This document shows positions 2,985 to 13,846 of a stretch of 26,326 nucleotides of DNA, piece by piece. Position 1 is the first letter of the stretch. The number at the start of each line of letters is the position of its first letter. The notes beneath the pieces are model-generated. The model was not told the origin of the DNA. It searched no databases and was given only the letters and a program-made list of their open reading frames with translations. Source of the DNA: a virus; IMG/VR virus record IMGVR_UViG_3300027906_000131, positions 1-26,326 of that record; one strand, given 5' to 3'. The translations under genes and the position numbers were made by a program.

Positions 2985-3137
2985 ATGGAATTTCTACTCG
3001 CAACTCTCTTAACTTGTGAAAGTGCAGAGGATATTATCTCTAAGATAAAACCTTCTACACAAAACAGATCTGAACTGGTTCAGGTTGTTAAGAGTTCAAC
3101 AGAGAAGGGATGCTTTGAGGACGCAAAAGCCGACTAA
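2985..3137 (+). CDS. Very small protein (50 aa) with hydrophobic N-terminus
   Basis: From ATG 2985 the product starts MEFLLATLLTCESAED, then a polar helical region, and ends CFEDAKAD. The hydrophobic first 11 residues lack a positive charge, so they do not look like a classical signal peptide; membrane association is possible. The last codons lie inside copy 2 of the GGACGC element, so the repeat there is partly coding. No named family. The clean open frame and the position between similar small genes support it. Confidence 0.6.
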   Translation: MEFLLATLLTCESAEDIISKIKPSTQNRSELVQVVKSSTEKGCFEDAKAD

Positions 3138-3415: not shown

Positions 3416-3553
3416 ATGAATAAAAGTAAACTTAAAGTTTTATTAGCTGCCTTAAAACAAGTGGTTGATGAACTGGAATCAGAAGTCTATTCAGATACTG
3501 CTTCCTATACTACTTCTTCTCCAGAATACGATGAGGTGTTTGATGACGGTTAA
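3416..3553 (+). CDS. Very small acidic protein (45 aa) coupled to thyX
   Basis: ATG 3416 to TAA 3551-3553. The N-terminal half is a basic amphipathic helix (NKSKLKVLLAALKQVVDEL) and the C-terminal half is acidic and Ser/Thr/Tyr-rich, ending YDEVFDDG. It lies about 14 bases beyond the predicted transcription start, and its end overlaps the thyX start by 11 bases, so thyX may depend on its translation. No family is recognised. Confidence 0.6.
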   Translation: MNKSKLKVLLAALKQVVDELESEVYSDTASYTTSSPEYDEVFDDG

Positions 3554-4175
3554 ACTTGTAAGCATTACACCTGATGCGGAACAACTCATGGCATACATTG
3601 CTAGAGTTTCTAATCCATCTAATCAGGATAATGAAAAGTATGCGGGTCTATTAAAGTATTGTATTAAGCACAATCATTGGAGTGTGTTTGAACAATCCTC
3701 TATGACAGTAGAGATAGAGACTACTCGTGCTATTGCTGCACAGATATTAAGACATAGAAGTTTTACTTTCCAAGAGTTCTCTCAAAGGTATGCTGCTAGT
3801 ACAGCACTTGGTGATATTGATTTACCAGAACTCCGTAGACAAGATGATAAGAATCGTCAGAACTCTACAGATGATCTGGATCCTGAGATGATAGAGAAGT
3901 TTAATAAACAAATGATTACTTTGTTTAGTTCCTCTAAATCATTATACGAACAGATGCTCAGTCAAGGTGTTGCTAAGGAGTGTGCTAGAATGGTATTACC
4001 TTTATGCACTCCCACAAGGATCTATATGACTGGTTCATGTCGTTCTTGGATACATTATATTAATCTAAGATCTGCACATGGAACACAGAAAGAGCACATG
4101 GTAATTGCAGAAGCATGTAGGAAGGTGTTTACCGAACAGTTCCCTGCAGTCTCAGAAGCCCTTGAGTGGGTCTAA
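3543..4175 (+). CDS. thyX: Flavin-dependent thymidylate synthase
   Basis: ThyX makes dTMP from dUMP with methylenetetrahydrofolate and FAD/NADPH. ATG 3543 gives a 210-residue protein beginning MTVKLVSITPDAEQLMAYIA, as expected for the family; the longer in-frame extension upstream belongs to the overlapping small gene. The ThyX signature RHRSFTFQEFSQR (70-82, pattern RHRxxSxxxxSxR-like) is intact, preceded by HNHWSVFEQ (43-51) and followed by a C-terminal SWIHYINLRSAHGTQKEH segment typical of the nucleotide-binding end. ThyX regenerates tetrahydrofolate directly, so it fits with PurN, which consumes a folate cofactor. Confidence 0.96.
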   Translation: MTVKLVSITPDAEQLMAYIARVSNPSNQDNEKYAGLLKYCIKHNHWSVFEQSSMTVEIETTRAIAAQILRHRSFTFQEFSQRYAASTALGDIDLPELRRQDDKNRQNSTDDLDPEMIEKFNKQMITLFSSSKSLYEQMLSQGVAKECARMVLPLCTPTRIYMTGSCRSWIHYINLRSAHGTQKEHMVIAEACRKVFTEQFPAVSEALEWV

Positions 4176-12941: not shown

Positions 12942-13661
12942 ATGCCTTTACCAAAAATTGCTACTCCAACTTATAGTTTGGAGTTGCCATCAACTGGAAA
13001 ACCTATTAACTATAGGCCTTTTCTAGTTAAAGAAGAGAAGTTACTTGTCATTGCTTTAGAGAGTGAGGATAACAAGCAGATTACTACTGCTATTAAAGCA
13101 GTCATTAAGGCATGTGTTCTTACGAAGGGTATTAAAGTTGAGACACTTCCTACATTTGATATTGAGTATTTGTTTTTAAATATTAGAGGTAAGTCTGTAG
13201 GTGAAGAACTAGAAGTTAATATTATCTGCCCAGATGATAAGGAGACTACTGTTCAAACTACTATTTACTTGGATGATATTAAATGCATCAAGAGTGAGGA
13301 ACATACTAATAAAATTAAATTAGATGATAATATTATGATGGAGATGAAGTATCCATCCTTGAATGAATTTATTAAAAACAACTTTGATTTTGATGAGAAG
13401 AATCAAATGGAACAGTCATTTGATCTGATTGGATCTTGTGTTGATAAGATTTATACAAAAGAAGAATCTTATGCTGCATCTGATTGCACTAAGAAAGAAA
13501 TGAATGACTTTCTTGAGTCGATGAATTCCTCTCAGTTTAAAAAGATTGAAGAGTTCTTTACAACAATGCCTAAGTTATCTCACACTATTGAAGTAACTAA
13601 TCCTAAGACTAAGAAGAAGAGTGAAGTGGTACTGGAGGGCCTAGCGTCTTTTTTCGCATAG
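12942..13661 (+). CDS. 26: Baseplate hub protein gp26 (tail chaperone G-like)
   Basis: A 239-residue protein whose sequence (MPLPKIATPTYSLELPSTGK, IEYLFLNIRGKSVGEELEV, and conserved KYPSLNEFIKNNFDF) matches gp26 of marine T4-like phages (T4 gp26: 208). In T4 gp26 is a hub assembly factor. The last codons are TCT TTT TTC GCA TAG and contain a T TTT TTC slippery heptamer in phase with the gp26 frame; a -1 shift there would read through CGC ATA GCA into the following 60-codon gp51. The fused product would have 301 residues (238 of gp26, three junction residues, 60 of gp51). See the separate feature for the signal. Confidence 0.85.
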   Translation: MPLPKIATPTYSLELPSTGKPINYRPFLVKEEKLLVIALESEDNKQITTAIKAVIKACVLTKGIKVETLPTFDIEYLFLNIRGKSVGEELEVNIICPDDKETTVQTTIYLDDIKCIKSEEHTNKIKLDDNIMMEMKYPSLNEFIKNNFDFDEKNQMEQSFDLIGSCVDKIYTKEESYAASDCTKKEMNDFLESMNSSQFKKIEEFFTTMPKLSHTIEVTNPKTKKKSEVVLEGLASFFA

Positions 13662-13679
13662 CAATGATCCACATGGATC
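13634..13679 (+). other. Candidate programmed -1 ribosomal frameshift signal (gp26 to gp51)
   Basis: Three elements line up. (1) GGAGGG, 13634-13639, an internal Shine-Dalgarno-like sequence nine bases upstream. (2) T TTT TTC at 13649-13655, phased X XXY YYZ in the gp26 frame. (3) A 5-bp hairpin GATCC (13666-13670) / GGATC (13675-13679) starting 10 bases after the heptamer. The -1 frame after the slip is open (CGC ATA GCA ATG ...) into gp51 and continues to the stop at 13844-13846. The layout is that of the E. coli dnaX signal and of G/GT tail-chaperone genes. Efficiency is unknown; the hairpin is weak. Confidence 0.75.
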
Positions 13680-13846
13680 TCGAAAGTTATTTTAGGCTTA
13701 ATTTTGCCTTGATGCAGTATCATAAATACAGCTTAACAGAGATTGAAAATTTAATGCCTTGGGAACGAGACATTTATGTTGGATTATTAAAGCAGCATCT
13801 TGAAGAAGAGAGGCTGAAACAACAACAAGAACAGAGTAATGCCTGA
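13664..13846 (+). CDS. 51: gp51-like hub assembly protein, probably expressed as frameshift fusion
   Basis: A 60-residue ORF in the -1 frame relative to gp26. It reads MIHMDLESYFRLNFALMQYH, then YSLTEIENLMPWERDIYVGLL and a helical Gln/Glu-rich tail. The position after gp26 matches T4 gene 51, where gp51 is a hub-assembly catalyst, but T4 gp51 is much longer (249 residues). The MPWERDIY type of sequence occurs in the downstream part of tail-assembly chaperones. No ribosome site precedes ATG 13664 or ATG 13673, which supports expression by frameshifting from gp26. Its 3' end overlaps the tape-measure gene start by eight bases. Confidence 0.7.
   Translation: MIHMDLESYFRLNFALMQYHKYSLTEIENLMPWERDIYVGLLKQHLEEERLKQQQEQSNA

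Follow-up and report, generated by a model that had tools for sequence, protein, structure and literature searches.

The locus examined here raises the question of whether two neighbouring reading frames in the tail region of a virus, annotated as gp26 and gp51, encode two separate proteins, or whether they are a single gene whose second part is reached by ribosomes that shift into the -1 frame. The window, meaning the whole stretch of DNA that was analysed, is a complete record of 26,326 bases from an uncultivated marine virus, and its tail genes are T4-like. The junction lies in the segment 12942–13846 (Table 1). The codon register at the end of gp26 is TCT TTT TTC GCA TAG; the first T of the heptamer occupies the third position in a gp26 codon, which gives it the phase X_XXY_YYZ. 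After a slip of one base back, the message would be read as CGC ATA GCA ATG ATC and onward in the same frame as gp51, with no stop before the TGA at 13844–13846, and the resulting conceptual fusion is 301 aa long as compared with 239 aa for gp26. The annotators' gp51 (13664–13846), which begins at the ATG at 13664, is only part of this -1 frame domain. A preliminary sequence-only reading had pointed to the in-phase heptamer, to the open frame that follows the shift and to a GGAGGG nine bases upstream, and all three were found as described.

Table 1. Features of the gp26–gp51 junction in window coordinates.
Feature	Position	Strand	Remarks
gp26, putative short tail assembly chaperone (TAC-N, gpG-like), 239 aa	12942..13661	+	TAG at 13659-13661
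GGAGGG, Shine-Dalgarno (SD)-like candidate upstream stimulator	13634..13639	+	9 nt 5' of the heptamer
Slippery heptamer T_TTT_TTC in gp26 phase	13649..13655	+	identical in 213/215 non-redundant homologues
-1 frame C-terminal domain (putative TAC-C, gpT-like), 63 aa, RIAMIHMDLESYF...	13655..13846	+	phrog_634, E 8e-28
Possible downstream stimulator, hairpin GATCC-ACAT-GGATC	13666..13679	+	stem-loops in relatives; the window's own is weak
Tape-measure-like gene, 592 aa	13839..15617	+	begins before the -1 frame ORF has ended

Elsewhere in the window, a glutamine riboswitch aptamer (RF01739) was detected at 2922–2974 on the plus strand with a score of 36.6 bits, the gathering threshold being 35, and a 50-codon ORF (2985–3137) lies just downstream. 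The ORFs at 605–1654, 2174–2749 and 3465–4175 resemble PurM, PurN and ThyX, putative assignments that were judged by eye. Metabolic genes of these types are typical of cyanophages.

The 25.3 kb of coding sequence in the window contain a single in-phase TTTTTTC, and this heptamer is not used for any of the 15 remaining Phe-Phe dipeptides; its presence at the junction is therefore not a matter of chance. All 127 close homologues carry the heptamer, whereas the synonymous codon usage of these genes predicts approximately 12% per sequence, a figure that cannot be multiplied into a p-value because the homologues are related. When the close homologues were clustered at 70% identity, it was kept in 15 of 15 clusters. 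A larger set added S-PM2-like cyanophages, freshwater-type contigs and Straboviridae outside the T4 core, with the counts covering homologues that have a TTN-TTN codon pair near the end of gp26. Here TTTTTTC was in phase in 213 of 215 non-redundant sequences and in 40 of 42 representatives that are less than 70% identical; the two exceptions read TTTTTTT (Sinorhizobium phage phiM19) and TTTTTTA (Rhizobium phage RHph_I1_18). The sequence-only reading had looked to such a comparison for loss of the heptamer coupled with a ribosome site proper to gp51, and what the homologues display is near-universal retention. The codon 5' of the heptamer differs among the phages (TCT, AGT, GAT, GGT, AAT and GCT, encoding Ser, Asp, Gly, Asn and Ala), while its third base is always T. 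In RHph_I1_18 (locus L172, about 3700–3735), T_TTT_TTA is situated nine codons upstream of the zero-frame stop instead of one, and the tail of the short form is longer.

A search of all viral contigs with the pattern GAGGG-N9-TTTTTTCG-NN-TAG recovered at least 120 stretches, and all 80 of those examined were gp26–gp51 homologues. An off-by-one control, in which the gap of the same pattern was set to N10, recovered eight stretches, two of them in homologues. Judged by these comparisons, the frameshift signal is under strong selection. One clade in the tree, consisting of Pseudomonas Cygsa01 (L169, 3720–3745) and Vibrio K364 (L173, 3705–3730), has no T6C heptamer, and the TAA of gp26 overlaps the ATG of the -1 ORF (TAATG); this junction has possibly switched to reinitiation, or else contains a weaker slip site.

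Upstream of the heptamer, GAG.GGN or GAA.GGG was present in 124 of the 127 close homologues compared with 37% predicted by codon usage, and the spacing of the GAGGG or GAAGGG element to the heptamer is fixed. Stimulation of -1 frameshifting by SD-like elements has been reported at spacings of 9–14 nt (PMC5009743), a range that includes the 9-nt gap of the window. The element is weaker in distant groups, where the codon after GAA is mostly GGA or GGT; the strong form is therefore a trait of the clade to which the window belongs. A general rule that GAA appears only with GGG was also considered and rejected, as it holds for 21 of 24 sequences in the window's clade and fails in the S-PM2-like and freshwater groups.

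Downstream of the heptamer, the sequence-only reading had noted a GATCC/GGATC hairpin and likened the arrangement to the dnaX signal. Its position was borne out, with the two arms at 13666–13670 and 13675–13679, the first beginning 10 nt 3' of the heptamer, and a folding energy of -7.9 kcal/mol. Its strength was not, since the 5-bp stem is weak against the codon null (z of -0.8), though the stem-loops of relatives are non-random. For the relatives, the folding of the 45 nt directly 3' of the heptamer was compared with that of synonymous-codon versions of the same sequence. The mean z was -2.7 for 73 representatives and -2.3 for 42 representatives below 70% identity; elsewhere in the gene the same z is about 0 to -1.2, with the stem-loop signal peaking just after the heptamer. 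A strict 5-bp stem was found in 40% of representatives versus 12% in the synonymous-shuffle null. Stem lengths are 14 bp in S-PM2 (shuffle z of -7.3), 11 bp in P-SSM2 and 5 bp in the window, and the position of the stem varies among relatives. Covariation backs the GATCC/GGATC stem among the nearer relatives but not across all of them. RNAalifold, applied to 72 junctions, returned no consensus structure; a single hairpin conserved across the relatives was therefore rejected in favor of hairpins that are specific to each lineage. That the stem-loops following the heptamer in relatives are clearly non-random is well supported by these comparisons; the corresponding statement for the window's own hairpin, a possible stimulator, is not.

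Of the competing explanations, the one that survives best holds that gp51 is a separate 60-aa protein produced by termination-reinitiation, the ribosome restarting at the ATG that in the window lies 2 nt past the stop of gp26. An SD-like sequence before a stop codon can retain ribosomes (PMC5009743), and the overlapping TAATG of Cygsa01 and K364 would suit such a restart. However, no ribosome site stands at normal spacing from the window's ATG, in line with the sequence-only reading, and the GGAGGG ends 24 nt upstream of that codon; an ATG occurs close to where the -1 ORF begins in 123 close homologues, and in a single one of them the first such ATG is preceded by an SD-like 4-mer. Moreover, four of the 127 close relatives (L024, L070, Syn19 and S-MbCM7) lack an ATG within codons 1–15 of the -1 ORF, and the freshwater-type contigs L265–L280 read RITLSQDSLANYFTLNFSLM..., with the first Met only at about residue 20. 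Yet close homologues keep the -1 frame free of stops, and its residues show conservation beginning with the codon that immediately follows the slip. Reinitiation would also give the invariant heptamer no reason to exist, and the gp51 of T4 corresponds to the whole fusion. We consider this explanation very improbable and conclude, from the homologous sequences, that gp51 does not constitute an independent gene.

A run of six T is short for transcriptional slippage in bacteria, and we give slightly less credence still to the proposal that RNA polymerase, not the ribosome, makes the fusion by slipping on this run. Although the homopolymer is there, and transcriptional slippage also yields mixed frames and can be favored by stem-loops (PMC5009743), the T run is almost never longer, ends in C and has its first T fixed in codon phase, and the distance of the conserved SD-like element stays within the ribosomal range of 9–14 nt.

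The identity of the protein was approached through both family and fold. gp26 matched PF12322 (E 5.8e-74) and phrog_150 (E 1.8e-79). Its AlphaFold model has a pLDDT of 85.6, and the top match in the PDB was the HK97 tail assembly chaperone 2ob9, with a Foldseek probability of 0.91 at a modest E value of 0.56, and a VIA Z score of 8.0 (rmsd 3.9) over 84 residues within positions 1–86 of the model. The next structural matches, 3fgx (Z 7.9), 3klu (YqbN; Z 7.1) and 5ir0 (Z 5.1), are small phage-like or uncharacterised proteins, and the remaining ones scored 4.3 and below. The scores for the predicted fold are modest, yet the top matches stand clear of the rest. A sequence search of the PDB with gp26 gave no match, and a search for relatives starting from the gp26 of a Desulfovibrio phage returned no loci. 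The ORF directly following the pair had been called tape-measure-like; it does match several tail length tape measure families in PHROG, though weakly (E 8e-6 to 7e-3, residues 264–352). The earlier proposal that the two frames form a chaperone pair is supported by the 2ob9 fold match, by the position before the tape-measure-like gene and by the collinear alignment of the fusion and T4 gp51.

We therefore regard it as very probable that gp26 and the -1 frame gp51 constitute one tail assembly chaperone gene expressed as a short and a long form through -1 frameshifting. We infer that slippage does occur at this site, in a minority of ribosomes, and that both products have a chaperone role. Most ribosomes would end at the TAG to release the short form (TAC-N), while the minority would slip one base back on T_TTT_TTC, re-pairing from TTT TTC to TTT TTT, to produce the long form (TAC-NC), which would read ...SFF-RIAMIHMDLESYF... 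across the junction. Slippage would probably be aided by base pairing of the GGAGGG to the 16S rRNA upstream of the slip position, and in the window's phage the stem-loop ahead of the site may contribute weakly. By analogy with gpG and gpGT of lambda, many copies of the short form would coat the tape measure protein, the C-terminal domain of the long form would recruit tail tube subunits, and neither form would stay in the virion.

The relation to T4 provides a further perspective on the locus. Both gp26 and gp51 of T4 appear in the list of hub assembly chaperones, and gp51 is needed although the particle does not contain it (PMC3004832). Like the gp26 of the window, these two T4 proteins belong to PF12322/phrog_150, with T4 gp51 aligning to the whole fusion and T4 gp26 to its N-terminal part; the difference is that in T4 the two forms are separate, divergent genes. 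When 81 conceptual fusions were combined into a profile, it aligned to residues 15–247 of T4 gp51 with the junction included; T4 gp26 ends at the junction, and T4 gp51 matches both phrog_150 and phrog_634. Since T4 gp51 spans the fusion and T4 gp26 stops at the junction, T4 has two genes for what these phages would obtain by frameshifting. A tree of 32 sequences resolved the T4-type 26s and the T4-type 51s as two clean groups, jointly placed on one side (98/95); on the other are all the frameshift-type phages, among them the Straboviridae nt-1, CC2 and Ah1. A single duplication in the T4 lineage would explain both T4-type genes; as the tree was rooted by midpoint, we infer the direction of that duplication.

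In the abstract of a 2022 study, Vladimirov and colleagues reportedly describe conservation of the frameshift among several groups of T4-like phages and the use of genes 26 and 51 by T4 itself. According to later papers, poly-T slippery sequences are present in T4-like TAC-N genes (PMC12846349, phage Adele, citing Vladimirov et al., 2022), and some T4-like phages encode the short and the long chaperone in separate genes and do not frameshift (PMC10885494, PRFect, citing Vladimirov, Gautam and Davidson, 2022). Since poly-T slip sites and short and long T4-like chaperones were reported in 2022, the core of our finding was already known; this settles the doubt in the sequence-only reading as to whether T4-type phages were known to carry such a signal. 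The T4-like phages of the 2022 study reportedly have the short and long chaperone forms that we propose for the window, whose phage is an uncultivated relative. A 2016 review had presented T4 as the exception to the conserved frameshifting of tail genes (PMC5009743). Literature searches combining frameshifting with cyanophages or gp51 found no direct report; with incomplete coverage, they also found no report of stimulators in the T4-like chaperone group. The literature searched yielded no peptide, ribosome profile or reporter for the gp26–gp51 junction, nor an experiment showing frameshifting in the group. The stimulatory elements of this frameshift may be undescribed.

The proposed arrangement is comparable to that of lambda, in which a short chaperone and a long form made by -1 frameshifting act on the tape measure protein (PMC5009743), but the heptamer differs (T_TTT_TTC in the window), the tail is contractile and T4-like, and stimulators are evident in relatives. 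With Escherichia coli dnaX it has in common an upstream SD-like element, an X_XXY_YYZ heptamer and, as a possible stimulator, a downstream stem-loop; unlike dnaX, the heptamer is T6C and not A6G, the gene is another one, and the window's stem is short and further off (10 nt). We suggest tentatively, with somewhat less than even confidence, that in T4-like phages of cyanobacteria and their kin a dnaX-like three-part signal, undescribed for the tail chaperone genes of this group, drives chaperone frameshifting, its parts being the SD-like element, a near-invariant T_TTT_TTC and a stem-loop re-formed at places that differ between lineages under the constraint of -1 coding.

In the public records of P-SSM2 (L162), Syn19 (L164) and S-MbCM7 (L165), gp51 begins at an arbitrary ATG, starts late or is absent. 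On the reading preferred here, the gp51 of marine phage records is a fragment, and the annotation of these three phages could be corrected to a frameshift product. The stem-loops, which recur at different places despite changed sequence, make up a natural set of variants for gauging how far such elements tune frameshifting in cyanobacteria. The frameshift and the gene pair were reported in 2022; what this analysis contributes is evidence of the strictness with which the slip signal is conserved across more than two hundred relatives. The signal is kept almost without exception in most of the T4-like phages examined outside the T4 core, and the two genes of T4 would represent one duplication that replaced the frameshift.
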